Shown here: piece after piece, positions 7,619-43,371 of the stretch
How the letters are laid out: every line of letters begins with the position of its first letter
Numbering within the stretch: position 1 is the stretch's first letter
Assembly (NCBI GenBank): GCA_030447315.1
Contig: JAUJPD010000008.1
Location: 81,932-126,811, forward strand
Direction: 5' to 3'
DNA from: Actinomycetota bacterium
GTDB lineage: Bacteria; Actinomycetota; CADDZG01; WHSQ01
DNA: 44,880 nt
Made by a program: the position numbers and the translations under genes
The notes under the pieces: generated by a model
Told to the model about the DNA's origin: nothing
Database searches by the model: none
The model's input: only the letters and a program-made list of their open reading frames with translations

Positions 7619-8736
7619 AGGAAGTTCACGATCAAGCCGGCCAGAGCCGCGAGCACGAAGGTGCCACCCAGCAGCATCAGTGGGATCCTCCAGCCCAGAT
7701 CTCCCCTCAGCAACGTGAACGTGACCAGCCCCGACGACGGAGCGGCGAGAAGCAGCGCGGTCGCCGGTCCGGCCCCCAGCCCCAAGGCCATCACGCCGAG
7801 CACGAGGGGGATCTCGAACAACGTAGGTAGTTGAAGCAACGCGCCGAGGAGAGCGGCGGCGATCACGATGGCGATCCCGGTCGCGCCGAAGCGAGACAGC
7901 TCTTGAGGCTGAACGAATAGCAGCACGGCTCCGACCAGGAAGCCCGCCAGGAACATGGCGGGGACGAGCCGCAAGGACACCGCGCTGGTTTGGGTCCACC
8001 AGGCTCGGAATGCATCACGGATCGCCGCCGGCCACGTGTCGCCCGACCTCACGGGCAGGGCCGGCGGGCGCAGGGGCATGTGCTGGGCGGTGCGCACCAG
8101 CTCGCGCGCCCCTCGTCCCTGGGCAATCGAGGGAACGAGGAAGAAGATCGCAAGGATCCCGAATACCACCCGCGCCAAAGCCATCTCTAAGGGGAACAGG
8201 AGGAAGATCGCCAGGATTCCCACCGGGTTGAACAACGCGGACCCGAGGACCATCCCGAGCGTGGTCTCGAGGCTGGCGCCGGATCGGTAAAAACCCACCG
8301 ACACTGGGGCGGAACACGCGCTGCACATGAACAGCGGCAGTCCCAGACTGCCCCCCACTCCGGCCCCCAAACGGCCGCCCTTCGCGAGAAGGTTCGTGAG
8401 CCTCGCCTCGGGCACCAAAGCAGCGCTCGCCGCGCCCCCAAGCAGCACGGCGAAGAACATCCCGATCGCGTTCGCGTCCCACAGGTTGAGTCCGAAAGCG
8501 ATCCACCTGAGCGGCCGCGGGAACGAGGCCGGGTCCACCAAGAACGAGAACGTCGAGCGGTCACGGGCGCTGGTGGGCTCCCCCAGGTTGGGGATCTTCT
8601 GGACAACCGCGGGCAACCGGGTCTGAGTGAGGAAGAACACCAACAGGGCGACGAAGATCAAGACCCCGATCACCGTTCTCTTGGTCAACCACGGTGCGGG
8701 CACGGACTGCACCTGTGGAAACGCTGGTTCAGACAT
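7615..8736 (-). CDS. UPF0718-type permease, copy 3 (CSACSAP variant)
   Basis: 373 residues starting at the ATG of MSEPAFPQVQSV. The open frame extends further upstream, but this ATG has an ACGGAG ribosome site 5 bases away. There are many membrane helices. The conserved cysteine motif is LPLFMCSACSAPVSVGFYRS, followed by SALFNPVGILAIFLL, a related but distinct arrangement from the CECGS of copies 1 and 2. A second half repeats the fold (LLQLPTLFEIPLVLGVMALG). The gene lies directly downstream of the PadR gene and is coupled to the DM13 gene. The substrate is unknown. Confidence 0.82.
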   Translation of the reverse strand: MSEPAFPQVQSVPAPWLTKRTVIGVLIFVALLVFFLTQTRLPAVVQKIPNLGEPTSARDRSTFSFLVDPASFPRPLRWIAFGLNLWDANAIGMFFAVLLGGAASAALVPEARLTNLLAKGGRLGAGVGGSLGLPLFMCSACSAPVSVGFYRSGASLETTLGMVLGSALFNPVGILAIFLLFPLEMALARVVFGILAIFFLVPSIAQGRGARELVRTAQHMPLRPPALPVRSGDTWPAAIRDAFRAWWTQTSAVSLRLVPAMFLAGFLVGAVLLFVQPQELSRFGATGIAIVIAAALLGALLQLPTLFEIPLVLGVMALGLGAGPATALLLAAPSSGLVTFTLLRGDLGWRIPLMLLGGTFVLAALAGLIVNFL

Positions 8737-8774
8737 CTCCGTCTTATAACCCGGGTGGTGAAGCTTCGGTACTT

Positions 8775-9149
8775 CTACCCAGTGTTTGCGTCTTTCTTGG
8801 TCAGTGCGTCGTAGCGCTCCAGATACGAGGCGATGATGCGGGAGCTCTCTCGCAGCGTGCCTGCCCATGCGTGCAGCCAGTCGCGGCCCTCGTCGGTGAG
8901 CTCGTAGGTGCGGCGGGCAGGTCCGAGATCGGACGTCTGCCACACCGACCTCATGAGACCCTCTTGCTCCATCGCCCGGAGCGCTCGGTAGAGGCCACCT
9001 GGATCCGCGGTCTTCAGACCCATCTCTCGCAGACGCTCGAGCAGGTCGTAACCGTGAGCCGACTCCTCGGCCACGAGCAGGAACAGGCTGGCTCGCAGGA
9101 AGTTCTTCGGCAGTCCGCCGGTCGGCTCCTCACGGTCTCTTGTAGCCAT
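8775..9149 (-). CDS. PadR family transcriptional regulator
   Basis: 124 residues from the ATG at 9149. The PadR winged-helix pattern is clear: FLLVAEESAHGYDLLERLRE, then PGGLYRALRAMEQEGLMRS, then RRTYELTDEGRDWLHAW, and a C-terminal helix (ESSRIIASYLERYDAL) for dimer formation. PadR proteins are usually ligand-responsive repressors of neighbouring genes. This one is 38 bases ahead of the permease copy 3 gene and just behind a metal-tail winged-helix protein, so it may control the permease/DM13 operon. The effector is unknown. Confidence 0.9.
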   Translation of the reverse strand: MATRDREEPTGGLPKNFLRASLFLLVAEESAHGYDLLERLREMGLKTADPGGLYRALRAMEQEGLMRSVWQTSDLGPARRTYELTDEGRDWLHAWAGTLRESSRIIASYLERYDALTKKDANTG

Positions 9150-9163
9150 CGTCGTTCCTCTCG

Positions 9164-9599
9164 TCAGTGGTGGTCGTCGTCGTGGGGATGGTCGTCGTGC
9201 GAGCCGTGGAGGTGGGCAACCCGGCCCGCCGCACAGGCCTCGGCCTCGTCGGGATCGGAGTGACACCAGCAGTCGGCGCCGCATTCTCCGTGGCCGGGCC
9301 GGGTCAGGTCGGCGAACTCTTCCCCGAAGACCCGGCCCCCATGCCGCTTGCCCTCCTCGGTCATGCTGTAGAGCCCGTCGGGGGAGCGTTCGAGGAGGTT
9401 CTCCTCCACCAACCGGTCGAGGTACTGAACCCCGATCTGCGCGCCGACTCCCGAGGAACCGCTCGAGCAGGTCGTCGTCCACCCGGTCGCCGACGCCGGG
9501 GAACTTCTCGCCCTGGATCCAATACATGACCTGCAAGATCTCGTCACGCCAGAACAGCGCCCGCAGCGCCTCCGACTTCGGTTCGTGCAGTCTCTCCAT
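9164..9599 (-). CDS. Winged-helix-like protein with Cys/His/Asp-rich metal-binding tail (one frameshift)
   Basis: The ATG at 9599 gives MERLHEPKSEALRALFWRDE and continues to DDDLLERFLG. The frame then changes near 9450-9460 to VGAQIGVQYLDRLVEENLLE and runs to the stop at 9164. The middle (LDRLVEENLLERSPDGLYSMTEEGKRHGG) looks like a winged helix. The tail has HGECGADCWCHSDPDEAEAC and then HLHGSHDDHPHDDDHH, a strong candidate for Ni or Zn binding. It lies between a CooC-type ATPase and a PadR gene, so a nickel sensor or store for hydrogenase maturation is a reasonable inference. Confidence 0.7.
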
Positions 9600-9610
9600 C
9601 GATAGCGCCC

Positions 9611-10396
9611 CTAGCCCGTCGCCAAGAGGGGCTCTGTCGCCAGGACCTTGTCGACCAGGTCCGCGATCGCCCTGACCGACGGCGCGGACGGGGCGTGATC
9701 GATGGGAGCCGCTCCGGCCCGTTCGGCCTCGGCGAGCATCGGGTCGAAGGGCACCTGCGCGAACAGATCCAGGCCGTTGCTCTCGCAGAAACCCTCGATC
9801 GCAGCGGCGTCGTTCTCGTCGCGCACCTTGTTGGCAACCACTGTCACGCGAGGGATCCCGAGCTGCTTGCCCATGACGCAGTAACGGCGGGCGGTCTCGA
9901 GCGACTTGAAGTAAGGCTCTGCGATCACCAGCATCACGTCGACCGCCTCGGTAGTGGCCCGGCTGAGGTGCTCCGGCGATGCCTCGTTGTCAACCACGAC
10001 GACGCGCTCGGCGTCGGGAGCTTCGTGCAGAAGGCCACGAACCGTGGCGTGAGAGGAGCACATTCAGCCGGTGCCCGCCCCGGTCGGCGATCCCAACAGC
10101 AGCAGACGCACGCGATCGGGACAATCGATGCCGAACTTGGCGTCGACCTCCTCTACCGGCCGCGACAACGAGACGACCACCTCCCCGTTGACCCTCTTGT
10201 GGTCCATGAGTCCGTGCGGGAGCGGAACGATCGACTCGAACGTCTCCCGGGTGAGCCCCAGGGTCAGAGCCAGGTTGGGATTGGGGTCAGCGTCGATGGC
10301 AAGGACGGGATGGCCGGCGCGTCCGACGAGCCGGGCGAAGGTTCCCGACACGGTGGTCTTACCCGATCCGCCCTTCCCGGAGATGGCTACTTTCAC
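9611..10396 (-). CDS. CooC-type nickel-chaperone ATPase A with in-frame TGA (predicted selenocysteine, UxC)
   Basis: 262 codons from the GTG at 10396 to the TAG at 9611. The N-terminus is the deviant Walker A of MinD/CooC ATPases (AISGKGGSGKTT, residues 4-15), followed by LAIDADPNPNLALTLGL. Codon 111 is TGA (10064-10066), and the same frame continues MCSSHATVRGLL, VVVDNEASPEHLSRAT, ANKVRDENDAAAIEGF and FDPMLAEAERAGAAPIDH, all ordinary CooC features. In CooC the residues here are CxC, the dimer-interface Ni/Zn site. The TGA replaces the first Cys and Cys113 remains. A hairpin follows (10034-10048). An ATG lies right after the TGA, so a split gene is the alternative. I favour selenocysteine because two paralogues show the same substitution. 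Confidence 0.82.
10034..10048 (-). promoter_or_regulatory. Putative bacterial SECIS hairpin for CooC A
   Basis: On the coding strand GCCACGGTTCGTGGC forms a perfect 6-base-pair stem with a GTT loop (or 5 pairs with a GGTTC loop). It begins 16 nt after the in-frame TGA, and the first loop G is about 21-22 nt from it. Bacterial SECIS elements are short stem-loops just inside the coding region with a G at the start of the apical loop, and this fits. The hairpin also encodes the conserved ATVRG, so part of the symmetry could be coding coincidence. Confidence 0.6.
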
Positions 10397-10712: not shown

Positions 10713-11948
10713 TTACAGCGATCGCCTCAGAAGGTGGTACTGGGTCGCCTGGGCCTCCTGGATCCGAGGGACGTAGTCACCCGCCACCGGATGCATCCGG
10801 TCACAGACCTCTCCCAGTGCTCCTCCTCCGTAACCGGCCAGAGCCACCGTGAGCAGTCCCCGCCTGCTGGCTTCCTCGGCCGCCGCCACCACATTGCGCG
10901 AGCCGCCGCTGGTGGAGATCGCGATCGCGACGTCTCCCTCGTCGCCGTAAGCGATGACCTGGCGCGCGAACACGTTGTCGAAGCCCACGTCGTTGCCGAC
11001 GCCGGTTATGACCGCGTCTTCGTTCGTCAACGAGAGCGCGGGACGGGGCCGTAGCCCAGGAGGCGGCGTGACGAGGTCGGTCACCAGATCCTGAGCGTCG
11101 GTGGCGGAGCCGCCGTTGCCGAAGGCGAGTACCTTGCCGCCCGCGTCCAACCTCGCTGCGATAGCGGCCGCGGTCTGGGTCAATCCGTCGGGATCCATCG
11201 ACCTCTCGCGCATGTCGCAGATGTCCCTCGCTTTGATGCGGATCGAATCCCCGACCTCTGTCAGCACCACATCGAGGTCGTGCTCGGCCTCCGCCAAGAA
11301 CGGATAGAGGAAGCTCGACCCTCCGGTGTCGTGGGAGCTTCCCTTGACGCGGTCCTCGAGCAGACCCTTGTGTTCGAAGAACACGTGCACGAGCTCCCAC
11401 AACAGGTGGTACAGCGTCTCGTGGACCTCCTGCACGATGAAAGGATCATCGGAGTCGACCGCGAACGCGTGCTCGACCCGATCTCGTCCATCTGCTCTCC
11501 CACCGAGGCGGATCGGCAACGTCCCCAGCGCATCGGCTTGCTCGAGAGCTCGATCGACCGGCGAGCGACCAGGGTCAGCGGCGCCGTGAAGGAGACCCAG
11601 AACGATGTCATCAGGACGGGCGAGCAGCTTGATGCGGCCGGCGAAGAACCCGGCCGGGTCCGCGAGAGCCGAGCCGAGGACGGAGACGTCGTTGACCAGA
11701 GCGAGAGCAGGCAGCGCGCGCTTTCCGACGATGACCGGGTGAACGAACTCCACCGAGACGTGTTGCGCGTCGGTCGCCGCGGCCCCCGCGCCCACCACGA
11801 GCAACCGGCCGCCACGGGCGAACCGGCGCGCCATCGAATGACACAGACGGGCGATGCGGTCGGCTTCAGAGTCGAAGAACGCTTCCACCAGCTCCCGGCG
11901 CAGACGGTACTGCCGGCGCACCAGATCCGGGCCGTGCTCTGTAGTCAC
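10713..11948 (-). CDS. Double SIS-domain protein (GmhA-like), hydrogenase-cluster associated
   Basis: 411 residues from the GTG at 11948, one base after the HypE stop. Two sugar isomerase (SIS) domains lie in tandem. The first (about 30-190) has RLLVVGAGAAATDAQHVSVE, a degenerate form of the phosphate-binding loop. The second (about 235-400) has the canonical VLAFGNGGSATDAQDLVTDL and AISTSGGSRNVVAAAEEA. GmhA-like single SIS proteins isomerise phosphorylated sugars. SIS genes recur beside actinobacterial hydrogenase hyp genes, but their role there is not established. The fusion with one degenerate half hints that only the second half binds substrate. Confidence 0.85.
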   Translation of the reverse strand: MTTEHGPDLVRRQYRLRRELVEAFFDSEADRIARLCHSMARRFARGGRLLVVGAGAAATDAQHVSVEFVHPVIVGKRALPALALVNDVSVLGSALADPAGFFAGRIKLLARPDDIVLGLLHGAADPGRSPVDRALEQADALGTLPIRLGGRADGRDRVEHAFAVDSDDPFIVQEVHETLYHLLWELVHVFFEHKGLLEDRVKGSSHDTGGSSFLYPFLAEAEHDLDVVLTEVGDSIRIKARDICDMRERSMDPDGLTQTAAAIAARLDAGGKVLAFGNGGSATDAQDLVTDLVTPPPGLRPRPALSLTNEDAVITGVGNDVGFDNVFARQVIAYGDEGDVAIAISTSGGSRNVVAAAEEASRRGLLTVALAGYGGGALGEVCDRMHPVAGDYVPRIQEAQATQYHLLRRSL

Positions 11949-11949
11949 T

Positions 11950-13026
11950 TCAGCAGATCCGAGGCAGCGGATCTCCGATCAACATGTCCATGATCCGGGT
12001 GCCCCCGAAGGCGGTCTTCACTAAGACCATCCCCTGCGGTTCGTCCGCGACCTCTCCAATGACAGCCGCGTGCTCTCCCAGAGGCAGCTCCTGTAGCGCC
12101 GCGAGTGCCCCGTCGGCGACGGCGGGATCCACGATCGCCAACAACTTGCCCTCGTTGGCCACCGTCATCACGTCGATGCCGAGGATCTCGCTGGCCCCTT
12201 CCACCGCCGGGCTGACCGGGACCGCTTCCTCTTGCAGCACGATGCCGACGTCCGCGTCCCGGGCGATCTCGTTGAGCACCGTCGCGACGCCACCCCTGGT
12301 CGGGTCCCGCATCACGCGCAAGCCGGCCCCCGCGGCACCCAGCAGCGCATCCACCAGAGGCCACAGGGCGGCGGTGTCCGAGCGGATGTCAGCGTCCAGC
12401 TCGAGCTCGCCTCGGGCAAGCATGATCGCGGTGCCGTGGTCGCCAACGGTCCCCGAGCACAGGATCCGGTCACCGGGGCGGATCTGCGTCACGCCGAGCT
12501 CCGCGCGCTGGTCCCTGACGCCGATGCCGCTGGTCACGATGTACATACCGTCGGCCTTCGTCCTCTCCACCACCTTGGTGTCGCCGGCTACGACCGTCAC
12601 ACCGGCCGCGGCCGCTGCCGTGGCCATCGCCTGCACCTCCGCCCGCAACACATCTCCATCGAGGCCCTCTTCCAGGACGAAGGCCGCGGTCAGAGCAAGG
12701 GGCCGGGCGCCGATCATCGCAAGGTCGTTGACGGTCCCGTTGACCGCGAGCTCTCCTATGGAGCCGCCGGGAAACACCAGTGGCTTGACCACGAAGCCGT
12801 CGGTCGTGAACGCAAGCCTCGCTCCGTCGACATCCAGGGCCGCGGCATCGGCAAGCTCCGCCAGTTGAGGGTTGGCGAAGGCGGGCTCGAAAAGCCCGCT
12901 CACGAGCGTGTGAGTGGCCTTGCCTCCGGCTCCGTGAGCCATCGTGATGCGCTCGTCACGCCAGCGCGGCCGGAGCTTCCGCTGACGCTCGATACGCGCC
13001 AGAACCTCTTGCTCGAGGCCCGCCAC
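11950..13026 (-). CDS. hypE: HypE, carbamoyl-dehydrating hydrogenase maturation protein
   Basis: 358 residues, intact. It belongs to the AIR synthase/PurM superfamily, with the ITMAHGAGGKATHTLVSGLF opening and the TTDGFVVKPLVFPGGSIGEL segment. It ends in PRIC, whose C-terminal Cys358 receives the carbamoyl group from HypF and is dehydrated to a thiocyanate. The cyano ligand is then passed to iron on HypC/HypD. It sits in the order hypC, hypC-like, hypD, hypE on the minus strand; HypD ends one base before it starts. It should not be confused with SelD of the same superfamily: the PRIC end decides. Confidence 0.97.
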   Translation of the reverse strand: MAGLEQEVLARIERQRKLRPRWRDERITMAHGAGGKATHTLVSGLFEPAFANPQLAELADAAALDVDGARLAFTTDGFVVKPLVFPGGSIGELAVNGTVNDLAMIGARPLALTAAFVLEEGLDGDVLRAEVQAMATAAAAAGVTVVAGDTKVVERTKADGMYIVTSGIGVRDQRAELGVTQIRPGDRILCSGTVGDHGTAIMLARGELELDADIRSDTAALWPLVDALLGAAGAGLRVMRDPTRGGVATVLNEIARDADVGIVLQEEAVPVSPAVEGASEILGIDVMTVANEGKLLAIVDPAVADGALAALQELPLGEHAAVIGEVADEPQGMVLVKTAFGGTRIMDMLIGDPLPRIC

Positions 13027-14148
13027 CTACGCTCCGGCGCGCTCTTTGGAGCGAGCGAAGCGTCCGAAGTTGTAATAGGCGGCGCAGGCCCCCTCGGAAG
13101 ACACCATGCAGGTCCCGATCGGCGTCTCGGGGGTGCACGCGGTCCCGAACACCTTGCACTCCCACGGCTTGATCACACCTTTTAGGACCTCTCCGCACTG
13201 ACAAGCCTTGGGGTCCGCCACGCGGACGCCCGGCATCTCGAAGCGCAGCTCGGCATCCCAGTCCGCATAGGCATCCGAGAGCCGAAGAGCGCTCTGAGAG
13301 ATGAACCCCAGCCCGCGCCATTCGAAGTAGGGCCGCAGCTCGAACACCTCGGCCAGCACCTCGAGCGCCTTGAGGTTGCCTTCCCACGGCACCACCCGCG
13401 AGTACTGGTTCTCGACCTCGGACCGCCCCTCGGCTAGCTGCTTCATGATCATGAAGATCGACTGCAAGAGATCCAGCGGTTCGAACCCAGCGGTGACCAC
13501 CGGTTGTCCGTGATCCTTCGGGATGAACTCGTAGGGCCGGCAGCCGACGACGGTCGAGACATGTCCGGGACCGATGAATCCGTCGAGGCGCAGATCCGGC
13601 GACTCGAGCAAAGCGCGCAGCGGCGGGACGATCGTCACGTGGTTGCAGATGACCGAGAAGTTCTTGATCCTTTCCGCCTTGGCCCGCATCAAGGTCAGCG
13701 CCGTCGACGGCGCGGTCGTCTCGAAGCCGATCGCAAAGAAGACCACCTCGCGGTCGGGGTTGTTGCGAGCGATCTTCAGAGCATCGAGAGGCGAGTAGAC
13801 GAACCTGACGTCGGCCCCCTGTGCCTTCGCATCGAGGAGGCTGCCGTCGCCGCCCGGGACGCGCATCATGTCTCCGAAGCACGTGAAGATCACGCCCGGG
13901 CGCTTCGCCACGGCGATCCCGTCGTCGACGCGGCCCATCGGTATGACGCAGACGGGGCAACCCGGGCCGTGGACCAGCTCGACGGTGTCGGGCAGATGGT
14001 CCTCGATCCCGTGCTTGTAGATCGTGTGCGTGTGGCCCCCGCACACCTCCATGATCTTGTAGTGGCGGCCGGGCTCGGCGAGAGCCGCTATCTGGGCGGC
14101 GAGCCCGCGCGCCAGGTCGGCGTTGCGGAACTCGTCGACGAACCTCAT
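13027..14148 (-). CDS. hypD: HypD, Fe(CN)2CO assembly scaffold
   Basis: 373 residues, intact. Conserved cysteines are Cys36 in MEVCGGHTHTIYKHG and Cys64/Cys67 in VHGPGCPVCVIPMGR. The CFGDMMRVPGGDGSL motif follows, and the C-terminal [4Fe-4S] region is ACQCGEVLKGVIKPWECKVF with later CTPETPIGTCMVSSEGAC. HypD with HypC binds the iron atom and builds its CO and cyanide ligands. The start overlaps the stop of the second HypC-like gene (ATGA). No internal TGA is present, although the protein is Cys-rich. Confidence 0.97.
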   Translation of the reverse strand: MRFVDEFRNADLARGLAAQIAALAEPGRHYKIMEVCGGHTHTIYKHGIEDHLPDTVELVHGPGCPVCVIPMGRVDDGIAVAKRPGVIFTCFGDMMRVPGGDGSLLDAKAQGADVRFVYSPLDALKIARNNPDREVVFFAIGFETTAPSTALTLMRAKAERIKNFSVICNHVTIVPPLRALLESPDLRLDGFIGPGHVSTVVGCRPYEFIPKDHGQPVVTAGFEPLDLLQSIFMIMKQLAEGRSEVENQYSRVVPWEGNLKALEVLAEVFELRPYFEWRGLGFISQSALRLSDAYADWDAELRFEMPGVRVADPKACQCGEVLKGVIKPWECKVFGTACTPETPIGTCMVSSEGACAAYYNFGRFARSKERAGA

Positions 14149-14402
14149 GCGCTCACATCCAGTCGCGCGATCGCTACCCCGCCGTGGATCAAGAGGCGCT
14201 GCCCGGCTTCCACCGGAGCCACCAGCTCGATGCCGACGGTTCCGCGCTGGCCGTGGTCGTCCTGGCAGATCGCATCGGGGTCACCAGCTTCGATCACTGT
14301 CACGGGCACGGCCACGTCGCCGCAGGTGAGACACCCATCGATGACCGCGCAGACGGCGCCGTACGACTGAGGGTCCACCATCGGAAGCCGAGGACCGGTC
14401 AT
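14145..14402 (-). CDS. HypC-like protein 2 (DGCLTCGD variant)
   Basis: 85 residues from the ATG at 14402, overlapping the HypC stop by ATGA and itself overlapping the HypD start. It has the HypC-family barrel end (GTVGIELVAPVEAGQRLLIH GGVAIARL). It lacks the N-terminal MC of HypC and instead has an internal DGCLTCGDVAVPV after residue 22. Such second HypC-type proteins occur in actinobacterial hydrogenase clusters. It may act as a chaperone for one of the two large subunits. The N-terminal Cys that HypC uses to bind iron is missing, so its chemistry must differ. Confidence 0.8.
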   Translation of the reverse strand: MTGPRLPMVDPQSYGAVCAVIDGCLTCGDVAVPVTVIEAGDPDAICQDDHGQRGTVGIELVAPVEAGQRLLIHGGVAIARLDVSA

Positions 14403-17003: not shown

Positions 17004-17760
17004 TCAAGCCGGGACGGCCATCTCCTTCTCGACCGCGTCCAAGAGCCGGTCCACCGCCTTCACCGCTTCCGAGCCGGCGTCCGCATCGATCACGGCCTGT
17101 CCCCGGCGGTCAGCATTGCGCGCGACCTCGTCGTAAGGAACGATCGCCAGCAAGGGAAGCCCCGTCCCGAGCGAAGCTCTCGACGATCTCTCGATCCTGA
17201 TCGTCTTCGACCTTGCTGCCCACCCCGTAGATGCGTGGGATGCCGAGGTCGGTGGCGAGCTCGAAGCGTCCGGCGCCGGTCTCCAGCGCTTTCCTGTAAG
17301 GCTCGAGCACGACGAGGAGAACGTCTACGTGGCGAAGCGTTCCGCCGGAGCGGGATAGATGCTCGAGCCCCGCCTCCATGTCGGCGATCGTTAGTTGGTG
17401 GTCCTCCGAGAGGAGGTCACCCAACATGCCACGCACGGTGGCATGAGAGCCGCAAGCTCAGCCACCGGCGGCTTGGTCCACCCTTGCGCCGATCACCAAG
17501 GTGACGCCGTCGGGGGCCTCGATGCCGTACCCGGTGATCAGCCGGTCGGCCGACATCGGTTCTCGACCCTGTATCGACTTCGGCAATGCCTCGGCCGCAT
17601 CCAGAACGTCGAAACTGAGACCGAGACTGGCGCCGAGGTTCGGATTCGAGTCGCAGTCGATCGCGAGTGTTCGATACCCGCGTCGCGCCGCGAGACGAGC
17701 GAGCGTGGCAGAGATGGTCGTCTTTCCGGTGCCACCCTTGCCCGATATAGCTACCTTCAT
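17004..17760 (-). CDS. CooC-type nickel-chaperone ATPase B with in-frame TGA (predicted selenocysteine, UxC)
   Basis: The ATG at 17760 overlaps the biotin-ligase-like stop (ATGA). Residues 1-15 are MKVAISGKGGTGKTT, and LAIDCDSNPNLGASLGL follows. Codon 101 is TGA (17458-17460). The same frame continues ACGSHATVRGMLGDLL and ADMEAGLEHLSRSG, so the site reads U-A-C where CooC has C-x-C. There is no start codon just after the TGA, which makes a split gene unlikely. A separate one-base indel near 17165-17175 shifts the C-terminus, which resumes LLAIVPYDEVARNADRRGQA and ends VEKEMAVPA at the TGA at 17004. A hairpin in the same position as in CooC A lies at 17428-17442. Confidence 0.8.
17428..17442 (-). 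promoter_or_regulatory. Putative bacterial SECIS hairpin for CooC B
   Basis: On the coding strand GCCACCGTGCGTGGC has a 5-base-pair stem (GCCAC/GTGGC) and a CGTGC loop. It begins 16 nt after the TGA, the same distance as in CooC A, with the loop G about 22 nt away. It covers the same ATVRG codons as in CooC A, so coding conservation contributes, yet synonymous changes keep the stem (GTT to GTG falls in the loop). Confidence 0.55.
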
Positions 17761-20784: not shown

Positions 20785-20906
20785 GCGGTGCATCCTCCGC
20801 CACTATGCCCATCCGTTGAGCCTCATCCATGACGTTTCATCCTCCGCCCGAGCGCGTCTATGCCCATCCGTTGACCCTCATCCATGATGCGTTGCATCCT
20901 CCACCG
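20773..20906 (-). repeat. Tandem repeat of a ribosome-site/start-codon unit
   Basis: Two long units (20803-20848 and 20858-20906) are nearly identical, and a third, truncated unit (20773-20801) covers the TPR start. Read on the minus strand each has GGAGGATG, then a short spacer and an ATG followed by GATGAG or ACGGATGAG. The longer units can encode the starts MDEGQRMGI and MDEAQRMGI. The array joins the end of the protease gene to the start of the TPR gene. It looks like a local duplication of a translation initiation region. Confidence 0.75.
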
Positions 20907-21338
20907 CGCCCGGCCACCGGCGGTGACAGCTCGCTCTCCAAGCGGTCCATCACCAGGGGCTGACAGCCCACCAGCACCGTCTTCGCGGGAAGGATCTTCA
21001 ATGCGTGGGCGAGCATCAACGCTTTCGAGGGCTTCGTGTAATGCATGTCGGCGAGATAGTCGAACCGCTCCATGTTGGTCATGCCCTCGGAGCTGTCGAT
21101 CTCCGGCTCGATCACCATGACGGTTCCGGGGGGGCGACCCCGGTCGACCGCGTCCACCATGATCAAGGCGTCGTAGCCGCCGAGGATCTCCTGCACCAGA
21201 TGGATCCCCCGGTTCCGGTCTCCACGACCTTCACCCCGGCCGGCAGATCTGACTGCTGCAGCCGGTGAGCGACCACCACTCCTGGAAACCATCGTCGCCC
21301 TGGAGCAGATTGCCCACTCCGGCGACCAGGATCCTCAC
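20858..21338 (-). CDS. [NiFe]-hydrogenase maturation protease A (HycI/HyaD-type, frameshifted)
   Basis: The GTG at 21338 starts VRILVAGVGNLLQGDDGF, the conserved beginning of the family (GxGNxLxxDDGFG), whose Asp binds nickel. After frame changes near 21290 and 21220 the protein continues IHLVQEILGGYDALIMVDAV (the second metal-binding Asp), SEGMTNMERFDYLADMHYTK and TVLVGCQPLVMDRLESELSP. These proteases remove the large-subunit C-terminal peptide after nickel insertion. The Met-rich helix before the end resembles proteases of group 1 hydrogenases. Downstream is the repeat array and the TPR gene. Confidence 0.75.
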
Positions 21339-22895: not shown

Positions 22896-22908
22896 GAGCG
22901 CCGCGAGG

Positions 22909-32161: not shown

Positions 32162-32188
32162 CTCAGCGCTTCACAGCTAGGAGGCGGC

Positions 32189-33189: not shown

Positions 33190-33560
33190 GCGCGCAGCGA
33201 ACGATCGAGCAGCACTTCTGGCCAAGCCGGCGCGGATCGAGCACCTGCTCGGCCACCCGAACCGCGTAGCCCTTGATCGTCCACCACGCCAGGTAGGCCT
33301 CGAGTTGTTGGAACGTCTCGCCGTCTATCTCGTCGGAACCGTGACAGCCGGCGCTCGACCTCACCGGCGATGATCCGATCGAGAGCGCTGACCAACAGTG
33401 GCTCGGGATACAGCAACAGTCCATCGGCTTCTTCGGTCCGGATGCGATCCCCGATCTCGGTAGACAGCTGGTCGAGATCTTCGGGGAGGCCGGGCGGAGG
33501 CTCCCAGCAGGGCGTCGGTATCCGACTCCTCAACGCGGCGCAGGCAGTAGCCGACGGTTA
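33155..33560 (-). CDS. Hypothetical protein downstream of the NifU-like gene (frameshifted)
   Basis: Two frames join: LDQLSTEIGDRIRTEEADGL, LLYPEPLLVSALDRIIAGEV, ERRLSRFRRDEIDGETFQQL, EAYLAWWTIKGYAVRVAEQV, ending IDLVPRPRRL at 33155. The frame change is near 33345. It is probably about 130 residues, all helical, and I do not recognise the family. The start is not clear. It is part of the hydrogenase B minus-strand train and overlaps the convergent Nfu_N gene slightly. Confidence 0.45.
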
Positions 33561-34292
33561 ACGCAGTTCGCCCAGATCCCGAACTCGGGTGCAGGTTGCT
33601 GTTCCTGTTGCTCTGCGACCATGGCGGTCAGGCATGCCTGCGCACGAGCAGCGTCAATGGGTGCGCCTGCGCCAGGGCGTGCGCGAAAGACGATGTCGTC
33701 TAAAGAAAGGGTCACTGTCGCGCAGAGATTGATCTGGTGCACCTTCGGTGGAGCTTGCTCGGGGCGGCTTCCTCGACGCCTTCGACCCCGATACCGCGCC
33801 GGGCCAGCGCCTTGGAGGATCTTCTCCACGCCCTGCGTCAGGGTGAGAGTGCCGGAAGGACAGCCATCACACGAGCCCATCAGGCGCAGTCGAACGATGC
33901 CCTGGGACACGCCGAGGACCTCCATCTCGCCACCGTGCGAGTGCAGGTAGGGCCGGATCTCGTCGAGGGCTTCCTCCAGCGACTCGGCAAGATCGTCGGG
34001 CTCGTCTTCCTCCGCGAGGTAGGTCTCGAACAGGCGAGCGGCGACGGGGGTCCTGCGCCAGGGAATCGACGGCATCTCCCGGAAGCATCGATGCGATACG
34101 AACCACCGCCTCGCGGTGGAAACCATCGACCCAATCCAGCAACTCGAAGGCCAGCCCCTGGTCTCCGACTCGGGTGTCGCTTGGAGGTGCTCGACGATCT
34201 CGCCCATGCGCACGAAAGTCTTCGTCCAGCTCCATCTCCTCGGACTGGACCTCGGTCTCTGGGGGCGGACGAACCGAACGAGTCTGCGTCAC
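33530..34292 (-). CDS. NifU-like Fe-S scaffold protein (frameshifted)
   Basis: The GTG at 34292 opens VTQTRSVRPPPETEVQSEEM and overlaps the protease stop. After shifts near 34205, 34165 and 34050 it reads MGEIVEHLQA, LAFELLDWVDGFHREAVVRI and ARLFETYLAEEDEPDDLAES. The NifU C-terminal domain follows: EIRPYLHSHGGEMEVLGVSQ and MGSCDGCPSGTLTLTQGVEK, with the CxxC that holds a labile Fe-S cluster. A further about 80 residues to 33530 have no clear match, and the true stop may lie nearer 33720. It likely helps assemble clusters for the hydrogenase small subunits. Confidence 0.7.
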
Positions 34293-34863: not shown

Positions 34864-36749
34864 CTATTCCAACGTGCACGAACACGAGTTCACCTCACGC
34901 ACGATGACACCGCGGGCCGGTGTCGAGGTGGGTCGTGCACGGCATGCAGGGGTCGAACGACCGATCGTCCTGAGAACGTCGATGCCCTTGAGCTCGTCGT
35001 CCTTCGTGGTCTCTAGAAGCGGCGTCCCGATGATCGCTTCCTCGTAGGCCCCGGGATTGCCGAACGGGTCACGAGGAGAAGCGTTCCAGGTCGACGGCGT
35101 GTTGATCTGGTAGTTCACGATCCGGCCCTTGTCCATCGTCATGTGATGGCTGAGGTAACCGCGGCCCGCCTCCGGTGAAGCCGCACGACGCGATCTCACC
35201 CTGGGGGATCGAGAACTTCGACCACGCCTTCGTCTCGCCCTTGCGCCACAGGTCGAACGCCTGGAGAAGCATGTTCATGGTGATCGCCGCGGTGAAGGCG
35301 ACGCCGTAGGCGCGGCCCCGGTTGCGCTCGAAGGCATTGACCTGTAGAACCTTCCACTCGAGCTCCATCTCGGGCAGCTCGAACTTGGGCATCAACATCT
35401 TGAGCCCGTCTCCGGTGGCCTGGATGAAATCGTTCTGCTGCATCTTCTGAGCCATCGCGGTGGTCCCATGCGCCCGTAGACGCCGGTCTCCATCGTCTCG
35501 CGGTCCCAGCGGGGGGCGCAGTCCCACGAGTACTTCTCTTTGAAGTTACGACCCTCGGGCCGGGGAATCGTGGACTTGTTCCATGCGTGGTACGGAGACA
35601 GCGGGTATCCGGCGGGGTCCGTCTTGAACTTCTGTCCGCTCTCTCCGTCGGTCCCTCCTCGTAGAACGAGTGGGAGACGAACTCCTCGATGCCGCAGTTG
35701 ATCTCGTGGAGGTTGGTCGTCACCAACTCGCCGTTGCGGATGACGCCGGGCATCGACCAGCGCTGGTCCCCCCACTCGGCCATGTTCTCGTACTTCGCGT
35801 CGAAGGACCAGGGATCGTCCCAGATGCCGGTCTGGATCAGGTTGTTGGGTCGAGCACCAACCAGCGCATAATCCGGGTTGTGCTCGAGGAAGAAGTCCAG
35901 CACGTCGTCCCACCACAGCGCGATGCGCTTGGAGTAGTCGAAGAACTTGATCAGGCGCGTGTAGTACTCGTTGAAGCTTGTCGTCGACAGCGTGGTCATC
36001 ACGCCACCCGGCACCAGCGTCGACGGGTGCGGGTACTTGCCGAACATGTAGTTGCACATCTCGCACGTCCGAGGCGGGTGAACTCGATCGCCTCGAGGTA
36101 GATGGCCCCGGTCAGGGGGTCCATCGCATCCATGATGTCTTTGATGGTCTTGTAGCCGTGTACGTGAGCATGAGGCGCAGAGGTGTTCTCGGCCTTGCGG
36201 ACGATCTCGGGGTTCGTGACCGAAACGAGCGCGGTCGAGTAGTCGGGTCCGGCCAACAGCCCGAGGTGGATCGGGTGGTCGTAGAGCATCTCGGCTCCTG
36301 CACCGAGGTTGCGAACGGTCACGCCCATCGGAGGCGTCTGCACCCCGAAGGCCATGTCCAGTGCCTGGGAGGAGACCGAGGAGTGAACACCGCCGCAGAC
36401 ACCGCAGGCCCGTGAGGAGATGTCGATCGCGTCTCTCGGGTCCCGACCCTGCAGGATGATCTCGTAACCCCGGAACAACATCGCCATCGAGTGAGCCTCG
36501 ACCGCCGCGGCGCTCGACGTCGAGCCCGATGTGAACGGCAAGAGCGCCCGCAACGCGCGTGATCGGGTCGATCATCCAGTCGCGCACCTTGCCCTCGGTG
36601 GCGATCGCTCCCCCGCCGATGGGACGCTGGATAGTCTTGGTGTAGGCCTTCGTGGCTGCGCCCGTCAGCGAGTACGGGTCCGCGATGCCCTCTCTGAGTC
36701 GCGCCTTCCCGTTCTCGTCGAACTCGAGCGGGAGGTTCTTAAAACACAT
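34864..36749 (-). CDS. [NiFe]-hydrogenase large subunit B (frameshifted)
   Basis: The ATG at 36749 gives MCFKNLPLEFDENGKARLRE, then DWMIDPITRVAG. Corrected frames add GYEIILQGRDPRDAIDISSR, the N-terminal nickel motif ACGVCGGVHSSVSSQALDMA, CNYMFGKYPHPSTLVPGGV, TTSFNEYYTRLIKFFDYSKR and VNYQINTPSTWNASPRDPFG, and near the end RSFDPCMPCTTHLDTG with the two last nickel Cys and His. After the His a tail VIVREVNSCSCTLE remains to be cleaved. Both nickel Cys pairs are TGC/TGT; there is no TGA here. Frame changes lie near 36530-36610, 36070, 35650, 35460, 35190 and two within 34915-34965. Confidence 0.83.
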
Positions 36750-36795
36750 CCGGGTTCACCTTTCCTCTTCTTTCATGCGACGGGTGAGCAGCTGC

Positions 36796-38028
36796 TCAGT
36801 GCCCGATCTTGGAGTGCTGGTAAGCGCGGTAGGCCTTGTGGAGGAGCTTCTGAGCACCCTTCGGCTGCGTGTTGTGCGCCCAACCCGATGGGGCCTCTTT
36901 GCCTTCCCAGCGGACGCTCCGGTTCTTGTCCGCCATTGTGGCGGTGCGCATCCTGCGGATGAACCCGCCCGTTACGCGACGTGTGTCGGGACGAGATGAA
37001 CGAACCGGGAGGCGCCGAATAGGCGAGAACTTGTCGGGGAAGCCCGGCATCGTGCACCCGATGCAGATGCCCCCCATCTGCATGCAGCCACCCGTCCCGT
37101 TGAGGATGCCTCGCTCGGCGATGTTGCACTGGACCACGGGCCCCCAGCAACCGAGCTCGACCAAGCACTCCTTGTCCCCGTAGGACTCGGCGAAGACGCC
37201 TTCTTCGTAATAACCGGCGCTTGGGACAGTGGCGATGGACGGTCTCGCCGAACAGCCACGCGGGGCGACCGAGCTCGTCGAATTCCGGAAGGGGCGCCAA
37301 GCCCTGCAGGAACAGCAATACGGCGGCCGCCGTCTCCATGTAGTTGTCACCGATAGGCGAGCACCCAGGGACGTTCACGACGGGGACACCGAAGGCCGAC
37401 CGATAGTCCTTGCCCAGGTAGTCCATGACCGCCATCGACCCGGTCGGGTTGCCCTCGGCGGCGGGGATGCCACCCCAGGTGGCACAGGTTCCGATGGCGA
37501 TGACGGCCGCGGCCTTGGGGGCCAGACGACGCATCCACTCGGCCGACGTGATGGTGCGCCCGGTCTCGGGATCCTCGCCGAGCCCCATGAAGTAACCGTC
37601 CCCGGAACGGGTCTCGTCGAACATCGAGCCCTCCCAGGTGACAACGAAGGGCGCGTCCAACTCGCCGCGTTCCGCCATGAAGAGGTTGTGCACCCACTCC
37701 GGACCGGACTCGACCGAGGTCACGGTGTGGATGAGCTCGAGCTTCGGAAGGCCCGGGACGATGCCTGCGAGCAGGTGCTCGACCCGCGGGTTGGTGGCGC
37801 CCGTGACTGCGATCGTGCAGCCGTCGCAGGACCCGCCGACCATCCAGATCAGGTAGATCTTCTCGAGGGGGCCGAGGCGCATCGCGTTGTTCGCCTGCGG
37901 GAGCTCGACGACCTTGCTGCGCATGCCGACGGCTGCGAAGGGATCTCTCCCGTCCATGTCCTCCGGCCGGTTGCCGTGAGAGGTGTGGGCTTCAGCGCCT
38001 GCGAGGTAGAGGTTTTAGCCTCGGCCAT
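36796..38028 (-). CDS. [NiFe]-hydrogenase small subunit B (frameshifted)
   Basis: The ATG at 38028 (site GGGAGGACGC) gives MAEAKTSTSQALKPTPLTAT, and a shift near 37965 leads to MDGRDPFAAVGMRSKVVELP. The cluster ligands follow: GGSCDGCTIAVTGATN, AIGTCATWGGIPAAEG, VVNVPGCSPIGDN, TVHRHCPSAGYYEEG, ELGCWGPVVQCNIAERG and GGCMQMGGICIGCTMPGFPD. It ends AYRAYQHSKIGH. Frame changes are near 37215 and 37010. It is about as similar to subunit A as close paralogues are, with the same lack of an obvious Tat signal. The large subunit starts 46 bases downstream. Confidence 0.85.
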
Positions 38029-39581: not shown

Positions 39582-40346
39582 ATGCGGATCGCGGTGGTGG
39601 GCAAGGGCGGCGCCGGCAAGTCGGTCGTCGCCGGCACCATGGCGCGCCTGTTGGCCCGCGGCGGTGACAAGGTCCTGGCCCTCGACTCGGACCCGATCCC
39701 CGGCCTGGCCATCAGCCTCGGGCTCGGCCCCCTCGACACTCCCATGCTGCTGGACGCGGTCGAGAAAGACGACAACGGACGGTGGCGTTTGAAGAAGGGC
39801 ATCGGGGCCGCTCGAGCGGTCCAGCGTTACTCGCTGGTGGGACCCGACGGCGTCCGGCTGCTTCAGTTCGGAAAGACCACCGCATCGGGGCTGAAGGACT
39901 TCATGGGCTCGGTGAACGGCTTCTACCAAGTGGTCCATCGGTTGGCGAGAGATGACTCCCTGTCGGGTTGGACGATCGTCGGAGACCTTCCCGCGGGCCC
40001 CCGTCAGACCGCCTTCGACTGGGTCCCCTACGCCGACAAGCTCGTACTGGTGGTGGAGCCAACGTGGCAGTCGATCCTCACCGCGCGCCGGATCGCTCGC
40101 ATCTCCCGACAACGCTCCGGGGTCGAAGTGGTCGCTTTCGGCAACAAGCTTCGCGAGGACGGAGACACCGATCTCATCGAAGAGCGGCTGGGCGAGCGTC
40201 TTGGAGGTTCCCTGCCCTTCGACCCGCTGGTGGCCGAGGCAGATGCCCACGGGAAGGCGCTCATCGATCACGCGCCCGATTCCCCGGCGGTGCATGCGAT
40301 CGAGCATCTCATCGACGCAATCTCCCGGCGTAAGGTGAGCGCATGA
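39582..40346 (+). CDS. CooC-type ATPase C, lacking the CxC motif
   Basis: 254 residues, intact. The deviant Walker A is VVGKGGAGKSVVAGTMARLL, and LALDSDPIPGLAISLGLGPL follows. The central region reads DFMGSVNGFYQVVHRLARDD where relatives have the metal motif; no CxC or TGA is present. Later features are ADKLVLVVEPTWQSILTARR and GNKLREDGDTDLIEERLGER, and it ends RRKVSA. It is coupled (ATGA) to CooC D, and the two may form a heterodimer in which only D carries the metal ligands. That is inference. Confidence 0.85.
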   Translation: MRIAVVGKGGAGKSVVAGTMARLLARGGDKVLALDSDPIPGLAISLGLGPLDTPMLLDAVEKDDNGRWRLKKGIGAARAVQRYSLVGPDGVRLLQFGKTTASGLKDFMGSVNGFYQVVHRLARDDSLSGWTIVGDLPAGPRQTAFDWVPYADKLVLVVEPTWQSILTARRIARISRQRSGVEVVAFGNKLREDGDTDLIEERLGERLGGSLPFDPLVAEADAHGKALIDHAPDSPAVHAIEHLIDAISRRKVSA

Positions 40347-41086
40347 AGATCGCGGTTGCGGGCAAGGGCGGTGTCGGCAAGACCACCATCTCGGGCACCC
40401 TGGCTCGCCATCTTGCCCGCACGGGCATGCCCGTGATCGCTCTGGACTGCGACACGAACCCGATGCTCGGGGTCTCGCTGGGGGTCGGGCCGGAGGAAAC
40501 CGATCGTCTCGGAACCGTCCGCCAAGGTCTAGACACCGGCGAGGTAGAGCACCAACCAACCACTCAAGGCATCGTGGAGACGTTCGGAACCGATGCTCCC
40601 GACGGCGTGCGCCTGGTGGTGGTGTCGCGCATTGACAACATCGACCCCGGCTGACCCTGATGTGGGGTTTCGCCCGAGCAGTTGCTCGGTGAGCTAGAGC
40701 AAGAAGGGGCAGCGGTCATCTGCGACCTGGAGGCCGGGGTGGGATCGCTGTTGCGCATGAGCGACGGGCACGTCGACGTCACGCTGGCGATCGTCGAGCC
40801 GACGGTGAAGTCGATCGAAGCCGCTACTCGCGCCGCGGCCATCGCCTCGGGACACGGAAAGGTGATCGTCGTCGCGAACCGGGTCAGAGACGACTCCGAC
40901 ACCGAGTTGATCCGTTCGGCCTTCCCCGACCACGACATGCACGTGATCCCCTATGACGCCGCGATCAGGCGGGCCGACCGGGAGGGAACCGCTCCGATCG
41001 ACTTCGGCGACAGCAGCGCCGGTCTGGCCGCGATCGCACAGCTCGCCCACAGGATCTCTCGATCGGACCCGGTGGAGGCTGCCTAG
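40343..41086 (+). CDS. CooC-type ATPase D with two in-frame TGA codons (predicted U-P-U-C)
   Basis: 248 codons in one uninterrupted frame apart from TGA at codons 104 (40652-40654) and 106 (40658-40660). The N-terminus is MKIAVAGKGGVGKTTISGTL, with LALDCDTNPMLGVSLGVGPE-type sequence (here IALDCDTNPM). The critical region is NIDPG-TGA-P-TGA-CGVSPEQLLGEL, where cysteine homologues would be expected to read CPCC. ICDLEAGVGSLLRMSDG, VIVVANRVRDDSDTELI and IPYDAAIRRADREGTAPIDF follow. No base needs to be inserted or deleted. A perfect hairpin follows at 40674-40689. It ends overlapping the HypF stop by 4 bases. Confidence 0.82.
40674..40689 (+). promoter_or_regulatory. Putative bacterial SECIS hairpin for CooC D
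   Basis: CCGAGCAGTTGCTCGG forms a perfect 6-base-pair stem with an AGTT loop (or 7 pairs with a GT loop). It begins 14 nt after the second TGA, and the loop G is 21 nt away, essentially the same distance as in CooC A. The encoded residues here (PEQLLG) differ from those under the other two hairpins, so the structure is not explained by protein similarity. Confidence 0.65.
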
Positions 41087-43371
41087 ATCAGCTTCGCGCT
41101 CGCCACGACGGCTTGTCCGAGACTGACCCCGCCGTCGTTGCACGGGACCTGGCGGTGGAGCAACACCTCGAAGCCGCGGTCGCGCAATGCGCTGCGGACG
41201 CGTTCCAGGAGGAAGACGTTCTGCCAGGTCCCCCCCGACAGCGCCACGACCTCGATACCCGTAGCAGCCCGCGCGCCGAGGGCTGTTTCCACCAGGCCCG
41301 CCGCGAGGCCGTTGTGGAACCCCGCGGCCGCCTCGGGGACCGAACGGCCGGCGGCGACATCCTCGGCCAGAGCTCTTATCAAAGAGACCCCATCGAGACG
41401 GCCGTCGGAGAACGGGAACGGATACACGAGGCCGCTCGAGGGATCGGCAACGTTCTCTAACTCGGCGGCGGCCTGTCCCTCGTAACTGGAGCGGGTCCGG
41501 AGTCCACACACCGCGGCCGCGGCGTCGAAGAGCCGCCCCGCGCTGGTTGCCTCGGGTGAGTTCAACCCCCGGCGAGCCATCTTCAGGATGGGCGCCCACT
41601 TGCTCCCTGTTTCTCTCACGACCTCTAGCGCCAGCTGGTACGCGCCGTCGCCGAAGCCGGCCTCCAGATAGACCGCCGCCATGCGCCACGGCTCTTTGAT
41701 TGCGGCCTCGCCGCCCGGCAGCGACACGGGGGCCAGATGTGCAAAGCGTTCGTAGCCGGTCAGGTCGGCAACGAGGATCTCGCACCCCCACAGGGTTCCG
41801 TCGTCTCCCATGCCCGTCCCATCGAGGGCGAGGCCGATGACGCGATCGGACCGGTTGTTGTCCGCGAGGCAGGAGGCTATGTGCGCATGGTGGTGTTGAA
41901 CCCCGATCTTGGTCGGAGCCTCAGACGACAGCGCCCATCTCGTGGCGAGATAGCCGGGATGCAGGTCGTACGCGACCACATCGACCTCGTCGATGTCGAA
42001 GAGGCGCTTCAGGTGAGCGACGCCGTCGGTGAACGCCGCCATAGCTGCGTAGTTCTGCAGATCGCCGATGTGGTGGGAAACGACGGCCAGGTCTTCGACC
42101 CCCAAACAGAACGTGTGCTTCAGCTCGGGTCCTGTCGCGAGAACCGGACGAGAGAAAGTCGTCGGAACGCTGATCGGTTGGGGCACGTAGCCACGCGAGC
42201 GGCGGATCAGATACTCCTGCGAGCCCACCGCTCTGACCACCGAGTCATCACAGCGGGTCCGGATCGGGCGGTCGTGGATCAAGAACGCATCCGCCACCTG
42301 TTGCAACCGCTCGTAGGCGTCGTCGTCCTGGAACGCCACCGGCTCATCCACAAGGTTGCCCGAGGTCATGACCAGCGGACGCCGCACCGCGGCCAGCAGC
42401 AAGTGATGCAGAGGCGTGTACGGCAGCATCAATCCCAGGTATGGGTTGCCCGGCGCTACCTCTTCGGCCACCGCGGTTGAAGGCCGTCGGCGCGACAGCA
42501 CGATGGGGGCGCGTGGAGACGAAAGCAGCGCCTCCTCCTGGCTGGTGATCACGGCCAGCTCGCGTGCTGCCGCCAGGTCGGCGACCATCAGGGCCAGCGG
42601 CTTCGCCTCCCGGTGCTTGCGCGCCCGCAGACGTTTCACCGCGTTGGCGTTCGTGGCGTCGCAGGCCAGGTGGAAGCCTCCCAACCCTTTGATGGCGACG
42701 ATCGCACCTTGGATCAAGAGCTCGGCCGCTCCTTCGAGGGCCTCGGTCGCGACGGCCTCTTCTTCGATGGCGCCGCCCTCGGCAGTCAGCAGCCGCAACC
42801 TCGGCCCGCACTCGGGACACGCGATCGGCTGCGCATGGAAGCGCCTGCTCCCTTGGTCCGAGTATTCAGCCGCGCAGGCGCGACACATCTCGAACGATGC
42901 CATCGTCGTGTTGACACGGTCGTAGGGCGAAGCGGCAACGATCGTGAAACGAGGTCCGCAGTCGGTGCAGTTCGTAAAGGCATAGCGATGTCGTCTGTCA
43001 CGTACGTCTTCGACCTCGGCGGCACACGCCCGGCAAGTGGCCAGATCCGGCGGTATCGAAACCCGAACCCGTCCTTCGCTTCGGCTCGAACGGATCTCGA
43101 ACGTCGTCGCGTCGGCGATGTCTATGTCTTCCGTCTGAAAACTGGTGATCGACGCCAGGGGCGGAGGGTCTGCGCGCAGCGCAGCCTCGAAACGAGCGAC
43201 CGCGGCTTCATCACCCTCGGCCTCGATCGCCACGCCTCGAGGGTCGTTGACGACGTAGCCGGTCACGCCCATCTCGATCGCGCGCCCGTAGACGAAGGGA
43301 CGGAACCCGACACCTTGCACCACACCTTGGATATGGAAGCGCCTGCGGATGCGTCGATGCATGACAGTCAT
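41083..43371 (-). CDS. hypF: HypF carbamoyltransferase
   Basis: 762 residues, intact. Domains in order: acylphosphatase (IQGVVQGVGFRPFVYGRA, residues about 10-95); two zinc fingers (CRACAAEVEDV to NCTDCG, and CRACAAEYSDQ to ACPECG); a YrdC-like domain (RLRARKHREAKPLALMVADL, APIVLSRR); and the Kae1-like carbamoyl transfer domain (QHHHAHIASCLADN, GLALDGTGMGDDGTLWGCE, VVALSGGTWQNVFLLERV, NDGGVSLGQA). It makes the carbamoyl group for HypE from carbamoyl phosphate and ATP. The usual WGGE motif is WGCE here. It is convergent with CooC D and the stops overlap. Confidence 0.97.
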   Translation of the reverse strand: MTVMHRRIRRRFHIQGVVQGVGFRPFVYGRAIEMGVTGYVVNDPRGVAIEAEGDEAAVARFEAALRADPPPLASITSFQTEDIDIADATTFEIRSSRSEGRVRVSIPPDLATCRACAAEVEDVRDRRHRYAFTNCTDCGPRFTIVAASPYDRVNTTMASFEMCRACAAEYSDQGSRRFHAQPIACPECGPRLRLLTAEGGAIEEEAVATEALEGAAELLIQGAIVAIKGLGGFHLACDATNANAVKRLRARKHREAKPLALMVADLAAARELAVITSQEEALLSSPRAPIVLSRRRPSTAVAEEVAPGNPYLGLMLPYTPLHHLLLAAVRRPLVMTSGNLVDEPVAFQDDDAYERLQQVADAFLIHDRPIRTRCDDSVVRAVGSQEYLIRRSRGYVPQPISVPTTFSRPVLATGPELKHTFCLGVEDLAVVSHHIGDLQNYAAMAAFTDGVAHLKRLFDIDEVDVVAYDLHPGYLATRWALSSEAPTKIGVQHHHAHIASCLADNNRSDRVIGLALDGTGMGDDGTLWGCEILVADLTGYERFAHLAPVSLPGGEAAIKEPWRMAAVYLEAGFGDGAYQLALEVVRETGSKWAPILKMARRGLNSPEATSAGRLFDAAAAVCGLRTRSSYEGQAAAELENVADPSSGLVYPFPFSDGRLDGVSLIRALAEDVAAGRSVPEAAAGFHNGLAAGLVETALGARAATGIEVVALSGGTWQNVFLLERVRSALRDRGFEVLLHRQVPCNDGGVSLGQAVVASAKLI

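Follow-up and report, generated by a model that had tools for sequence, protein, structure and literature searches.

Putative selenocysteine-containing CooC-type ATPases encoded with [NiFe] hydrogenases in Actinomycetota and Chloroflexota/Thermomicrobiota

CooC and HypB have been compared as similar NTPase metallochaperones in a passage of PMC9164220. One known CooC protein is CooC1 of Carboxydothermus hydrogenoformans (PDB 3KJE, 3KJG, 3KJH, 3KJI), the nickel ATPase of CODH. According to an excerpt of PMC6006190, CooC1 binds Zn through Cys112 and Cys114 at its dimer interface, a site for which Ni is a competitor. In hydrogenase maturation, the large subunit first receives Fe(CN)2CO and is then supplied with Ni by the GTPase HypB together with HypA; some archaeal HypBs are ATPases (excerpt of PMC12134894). 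The HypB of Thermococcus kodakarensis belongs to the Mrp/MinD family, and no Ni site is identified for it in the relevant section of PMC7055735. A CobW-related selenoprotein (NF041053, motif UxxC) belongs to an NTPase family of metal chaperones and carries selenocysteine (Sec) (Table 1 of PMC13188914). [NiFeSe] hydrogenases, enzymes of hydrogen metabolism, bind nickel at a site that contains Se.

In this study we describe CooC A, a candidate selenoprotein encoded in an actinobacterial hydrogenase cluster. It shares with CooC1 the fold, a deviant Walker A motif and two metal-Cys columns at the dimer interface; it differs in having a predicted Sec at the first Cys, in its linkage to a [NiFe] hydrogenase, and in that no CooS was found in its genome. 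With HypB and HypA it presumably shares the task of handing Ni to the large subunit in a nucleotide-driven step; however, CooC A is not matched by the HypB model. T. kodakarensis HypB is likewise a MinD-like ATPase, in the HypB job, and is therefore a precedent for such an ATPase in nickel delivery; unlike CooC A, it works with HypA and gives no sign of being a selenoprotein in the excerpts concerned (PMC7055735, PMC12134894). The CobW-related selenoprotein is, in contrast to CooC A, a G3E GTPase (passage of PMC9164220) with a different motif. [NiFeSe] hydrogenases carry Sec in the enzyme, whereas here it is predicted in a putative assembly factor and the DPCxxC motif of the hydrogenase has Cys. 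CooC is absent from the 119 prokaryotic selenoprotein families in Table 1 of PMC13188914 (2026), where the CobW-related protein is the nearest entry, and does not occur in the excerpts of PMC12013277 and PMC9312934 examined. The statement of a previous sequence-only reading of this DNA that it knew of no description of a selenocysteine CooC agrees with that table and with the titles and abstracts searched; a cited groundwater study may list further candidates.

The window, i.e. the whole stretch of DNA analyzed, comprises 44,880 nt of contig JAUJPD010000008.1 (GCA_030447315.1, Actinomycetota bacterium; positions 81,932-126,811), and all coordinates are window positions unless a contig is named (Table 1). 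The frame of CooC A starts with GTG at 10396, stops with TAG at 9611-9613 and comprises 262 codons, with a single interruption, a TGA at codon 111, at which the program-made ORF list breaks the gene in two. Translation confirmed the sequence-only reading on this frame. The site reads GTG-(TGA)-MCSSHATVRG, with CooC-like sequence on either side. The top PDB match was CooC1 (3kje, E 1.9e-25; runner-up E 3.1e-9), and in this alignment codon 111 corresponds to Cys112 and Cys113 to Cys114. The two metal-site residues are thus in the CxC register, the first being UGA and the second Cys, so that the TGA does stand on the first Cys of CxC; the earlier description of CxC as a dimer-interface Ni/Zn site matches the two CooC1 cysteines. 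A structure predicted with AlphaFold2 (29 aligned sequences, Sec entered as Cys) had a mean pLDDT of 92.5, and CooC1 ranked first among its fold matches. CooC A has both the deviant Walker A of the GKGGxGKTT type and the MinD-like fold of CooC-type proteins. No NCBIfam model matched above its cut-off, and HypB was not among the 14 family matches at E ≤ 1e-3. Similarity to PDB entries 3vx3 and 5aun-5auq, which we take to be T. kodakarensis ATPase-type HypB, was weak (E 7.5e-4). Judged by sequence, CooC A is not a HypB and could at most be an analogue.

Table 1. Features of the CooC/hydrogenase region (window positions) and the selD gene of the same genome (G000).
Feature	Position	Strand	Remarks
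PadR-type regulator	8775..9599	-	directly after CooC A; adjoins CooC in several relatives too
CooC A	9611..10396	-	261 aa, one predicted Sec codon; deviant Walker A GKGGSGKTT; motif GUMC
SECIS-like hairpin, CooC A	10032..10050	-	bases 17-35; core stem 19-23/29-33; apical GGUUC
UGA (predicted Sec) codon 111 of CooC A	10064..10066	-	column of CooC1 Cys112
SIS-domain protein	10713..11948	-	
hypE	11950..13026	-	TIGR02124, 411.8 bits
hypD	13027..14148	-	TIGR00075, 502.7 bits
hypC	14145..14345	-	domain at end of longer ORF
CooC B	17164..17760	-	motif GUAC; C-terminal part in another frame, probable assembly indel
UGA (predicted Sec) codon 101 of CooC B	17458..17460	-	hairpin at 17426-17444
HycI-type hydrogenase maturation protease	20858..21292	-	PF01750
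NifU-like protein	33530..34213	-	PF01106
[NiFe] hydrogenase large subunit	~35000..36749 (approximate limits)	-	several frame breaks; RACGVCGG, DPCMPC with Cys
[NiFe] hydrogenase small subunit	36773..37957	-	PF01058
CooC D	39582..40346	+	without CxC; overlaps CooC C start; normal TGA stop
CooC C	40343..41086	+	motif GUPUCG, UGA at both CxC columns
two UGA codons (104, 106) of CooC C	40652..40660	+	Pro codon between
SECIS-like hairpin CCCGAGCAGUUGCUCGGU, CooC C	40673..40690	+	3' of second UGA; 6/7 pairs
hypF	41083..43371	-	
selD (Sec by sequence)	G000:C15:38557-39471		GGGUACK

In the genome holding the window (G000; 2.46 Mb in 22 contigs; 91.7% complete), CooC was matched four times at E ≤ 1e-3, every time inside the window: A has the motif UMC, B UAC and C UPUC, and D is without CxC. 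Two more TGA-bearing paralogues, a [NiFe] hydrogenase instead of a CODH setting, and the failure to find HypA and HypB all go beyond the sequence-only reading. At the level of sequence, both the observation and the interpretation of that reading stand, and the case appears to be broader, a family of Sec-CooC ATPases tied to [NiFe] hydrogenases. The small-subunit gene is immediately preceded by the Sec-CooC gene in Thermomicrobiales/Chloroflexia and one Actinomycetota family (f13); in other cases the two are found within one cluster. Hydrogenase queries were unmatched, in the stretches examined, at some CooC loci, for example Sec loci L102, L103 and L110 and most Cys loci. The intact large subunit of a relative (G010) matched HofG (5aa5; 473 bits), an actinobacterial-type hydrogenase.

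All 19 DPCxxC motifs in the loci examined have Cys (18 places, since L024 and L134 are one contig), as does the DPCMPC of the window, and Sec in the hydrogenase itself was rejected. The aligned HypC, HypD, HypE, HypF, large-subunit, HycI and NifU stretches of these loci contain zero internal TGA. Taken together, this places the selenium in the putative assembly factor rather than the hydrogenase.

A role in CODH maturation was rejected and CooC A was not filed as a CODH maturase because no CooS match (TIGR01702, E ≤ 1e-3) was found in G000, the one genome searched for it. HypA was not found in G000 at E ≤ 1e-3, and the best HypB score was 41 bits against a cut-off of 121. Since the CooC genes stand with hypCDEF, the protease and the hydrogenase, and CooS, HypB and HypA were not found, the nickel step of hydrogenase maturation is the most likely place of action. 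HypA, HypB and tRNA-Sec were searched for in 25 Sec-CooC genomes, within a list of 50 (the set leaves out G172 and the genomes of L027, L029 and L031). HypB was above its cut-off in two (G220, G317) and missing in 23; HypA was detected at E ≤ 1e-3 in six (G220, G317, G210, G268, G396 and, weakly, G151) and missing in 19. Two genomes, G220 and G317, therefore carry Sec-CooC alongside both, which counts against replacement. In its favor, the matches listed include no CooC at E ≤ 1e-15 for five class mates that do encode HypA and HypB (G017, G019, G021, G022, G023). The picture is nevertheless not one of simple exchange: in the family of the window's genome, none of the 15 other genomes has HypB above the cut-off, and 10 of these are also without CooC at E ≤ 1e-15 among the matches listed; G001 and G004, without CooC by the same measure, have HypA matches of more than 50 bits. 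The HypB pattern may in part be plain lineage loss. In G380, five CooC genes form one cluster (L114), none with TGA; HypA and HypB are present there, and no tRNA-Sec was found.

Based on these comparisons, we propose that CooC A and its paralogues are nickel-insertion ATPases for [NiFe] hydrogenase that stand in for HypAB, a reading to which we assign a probability of roughly 0.7. Its parts differ in strength. CooC A is almost certainly a selenoprotein, with Sec inserted at the UGA, on the sequence evidence given below. Nickel is quite probably the metal at the site, and a nickel insertion role with [NiFe] hydrogenase as the client is likely. Whether Sec-CooC replaces both HypA and HypB appears evenly balanced. 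SelB and tRNA-Sec would decode UGA 111 as selenocysteine, aided by the hairpin that starts about 15 bases past the UGA. The product is a CooC-type (MinD/ParA-like) P-loop ATPase, expected to dimerize by analogy with CooC1. One Ni(II) would then be held at the dimer interface by two selenolates and two thiolates, one UxC per chain; in paralogue C the corresponding site would be UxUC. ATP binding and hydrolysis would open the interface, and Ni would be passed to the large subunit already carrying Fe(CN)2CO. A selenolate is a softer and more acidic ligand than a thiolate and is less readily lost to irreversible oxidation. Sec could thus keep the Ni site of an assembly factor working in aerobic soil bacteria, a habit that is itself presumed for these hosts. 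The odds are even that a set of Sec-CooC proteins (UxC, CxU and UxU, with a CxC-free partner beside the C type) took over the entire work of HypA/HypB on actinobacterial-type [NiFe] hydrogenases, and did so in several lineages of Actinomycetota and Chloroflexota/Thermomicrobiota.

The alternative that survives best accepts Sec at the UGA and supposes that the protein is not a hydrogenase nickel inserter: it would instead serve some other metal or a cluster (Zn, Cu, Fe-S), or be a redox- or peroxide-sensing ATPase. We regard this as unlikely, with several observations speaking for it. Redox functions are deemed likely for most uncharacterized Sec proteins (PMC13188914). Several genomes carry multiple CooC paralogues, so a single Ni step cannot account for all of them, and the several paralogues per cluster together with the CxC-free D point to multiple tasks. 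Genes for NifU-like proteins are found close by, and the second Cys is lost (UxG) in two of the genes. Against it, however, the Sec columns are the known metal ligands of CooC1, and the nickel pair HypA/HypB was not found in most Sec-CooC genomes, while HypC, HypD, HypE and HypF are present in the window.

The CooC domain set, 140 rows less 26 weak or short ones and 26 duplicates, contained 88 distinct sequences. In-frame TGA was found in 35 of these, from Actinomycetota and Chloroflexota/Thermomicrobiota. All 40 in-frame TGA codons sit in the two CxC columns (29 in the first, 11 in the second), with none elsewhere in 21,448 codons; the stretches counted were cut at TAA and TAG, so that TAA or TAG inside genes is invisible in this count. 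One TAG each was present in the CooC matches of G285 and G238, among the matches listed. The motif was CxC in 38 sequences, UxC in 21, CxU in six, UxU in five, UxG in two and ambiguous in one (L103, where the motif alignment is uncertain), and 15 had no motif. A scan of contigs gave 20 CooC loci, with TGA at the same column in eight, L023 and L024 (Actinomycetota) and L026-L031 (Thermomicrobiales/Chloroflexia), and Cys in 11; in L042 the frame is broken ahead of the site and CMC stands in another frame. The closest relatives of CooC A (69% identity) also have TGA and the remoter ones TGC or TGT, which bears out the expectation of the sequence-only reading that this is a Cys column and appears, from sequence, to be the usual Sec/Cys pattern. 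At class level (24 genomes), TGA-bearing CooC was found in G000, G003, G007, G008 and G010. At phylum level, at least 128 of 396 genomes had a CooC match (E ≤ 1e-15), with further TGA-bearing ones among the matches listed; the single TGA listed for G118 is not inside the CooC domain and was not counted as Sec. All genomes named here were assembled from metagenomes. When the 88 sequences are placed on a tree, the Sec label requires seven changes, six of them forced by well-supported branches, which means that gain or loss of Sec has occurred on several occasions. Two variant sites were also seen, UTUG (both ligands Sec by the same reading) and UTG (second Cys lost), at L025:6891-7631, L102:9353-10087 and L110:8019-8717; UTUG occurs in a Chloroflexi genome in which the adjoining CooC has CMC.

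A SECIS-like hairpin follows the UGA (base 1 is the U of UGA). A- and B-like Sec genes have a stem at 19-23/29-33, in many cases extended to 17-23/29-35. Its apical G-U occupies bases 25-26, compared with 24-25 for the apical G-U of C-type genes. In E. coli fdhF the key SECIS loop bases are at 23-24. The five core pairs are complete in every one of the 14 distinct A/B-type Sec genes, compared with one of 23 Cys relatives. The HATVR peptide is also encoded by five of these relatives; the 23 were picked by motif pattern and include L036, which is out of register. In 2000 synonymous recodings the core stem appeared in a mean of 1.41, and a maximum of six, of the 14 genes. Columns 18/34, 19/33, 20/32 and 21/31 change together (U-A/C-G, G-C/A-U, C-G/U-A), pair 18/34 being formed in only 9 of the 14. 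In C-type genes the second UGA is followed by CCCGAGCA-GUU-GCUCGGG or a closely similar sequence, with six to seven of seven positions paired in all 10 Sec genes examined, compared with four and three in the two Cys C-type genes (L114). As members of one clade are non-independent, there were fewer events than these counts suggest. When folded as a single sequence, the CooC A hairpin was not significantly stable (z -0.4 to -1.8); the hairpin case is comparative and does not draw on single-sequence stability. In the HARVRG clade (L075-L080, L083, L085, L088) the hairpin is in a shifted register and without the apical G-U. The alternative stem there, at 13-18/25-30, is present in 7/7 distinct stretches of the clade, in 1/14 other Sec genes and in 0/23 Cys genes. 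SelB of the HARVRG-clade hosts may recognize a different loop.

Genes for Sec synthesis and insertion, for which the sequence-only reading had called, were all detected in G000: tRNA-Sec (81.8 bits), selA (489 bits), selB (327 bits) and selD (377 bits). The selD match has one in-frame TGA and fits the UxxK motif of the Sec-SelD entry in PMC13188914; SelD of G000 would itself be a selenoprotein, judging from its sequence. The selA match (G000:C18:366159-367480) consists of two overlapping pieces in different frames, probably an assembly indel. tRNA-Sec was detected in 17 of the 25 Sec-CooC genomes, G000 included, in a search that scored at most 67 candidates per genome under stricter filters on mostly fragmented assemblies. 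The eight without it include G151 (95% complete), G007 (98%), G008 (94%) and G152 (94%), and are the weak point of the Sec case.

Reading of the UGA as another amino acid, by a suppressor tRNA or a local code change, or as Cys via the Sec pathway, is very improbable. Se and S at the inserted residue are indistinguishable from sequence; against this alternative, the replaced columns are Cys columns, hairpins occur downstream at SECIS-like spacing, SelD of G000 has UGA at its own catalytic position, and UGA is a working stop in adjoining genes. TGA is the ordinary stop of six of the 12 window genes checked (HypE, HypC, NifU, the small subunit, a nitrilase and a TPR gene), which, with its absence inside the hydrogenase and Hyp stretches mentioned above, rules out a global reassignment. 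We counted 11 TGA in the matched stretches of the small subunit (seven) and PadR (four) at the loci examined, and read them as alignment tails past the true gene ends. An ordinary stop in a split or decayed gene, or an assembly error of TGC to TGA, is the weakest alternative and barely credible: the assembly does have frame breaks (large subunit, CooC B, selA) and an ATG comes right after the TGA in CooC A, but these breaks are indels and the TGA is not, TGA recurs at the same column in independently assembled genomes of different phyla and nowhere else in the aligned family, and the split gene that the sequence-only reading had itself considered is unsupported because the ATG is not conserved (the following codon is AAC, CTG, GCT, ACG or ACC in other TGA genes) whereas the hairpin 3' of the TGA is.

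If Sec insertion at these sites is correct, Sec-CooC would be a new selenoprotein family in which Sec is a structural metal ligand of an ATP-driven metallochaperone, in some sites with both CxC cysteines replaced. The proposed function, if true, would explain hydrogenase-bearing genomes without HypA and HypB. It would link hydrogen oxidation to selenium supply, making hydrogen scavenging in these bacteria selenium-dependent even though the hydrogenase itself is without selenium. Standard gene callers are likely to cut Sec-CooC genes in two.

Several further features were observed. A CxC-free paralogue (D) adjoins, or lies within about 1 kb of, a UxUC or CxUC paralogue (C), at 39582-41086 of the window and at other loci (L051/L065, L064, L066/L071, L100, L106, L107, L109, L111, L113 and L114); it is tempting to speculate on a heterodimer with one metal half-site. 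An ABC-permease ORF (22513-23247) has one TGA and was dropped as a further Sec candidate because its Pfam match stops before the TGA, which was taken as an ordinary stop. A second pair of hydrogenase large and small subunits, with a repeatedly broken frame, lies at 29437-32163 (+); the breaks in this pair and in the large subunit at 35.0-36.75 kb are probably assembly indels and possibly decay. An ArsP-like permease is encoded near CooC A (7618-8943, minus strand) and is weakly similar to two efflux families, SaoE and SO_0444, the latter listed as a selenoprotein family (PMC13188914).
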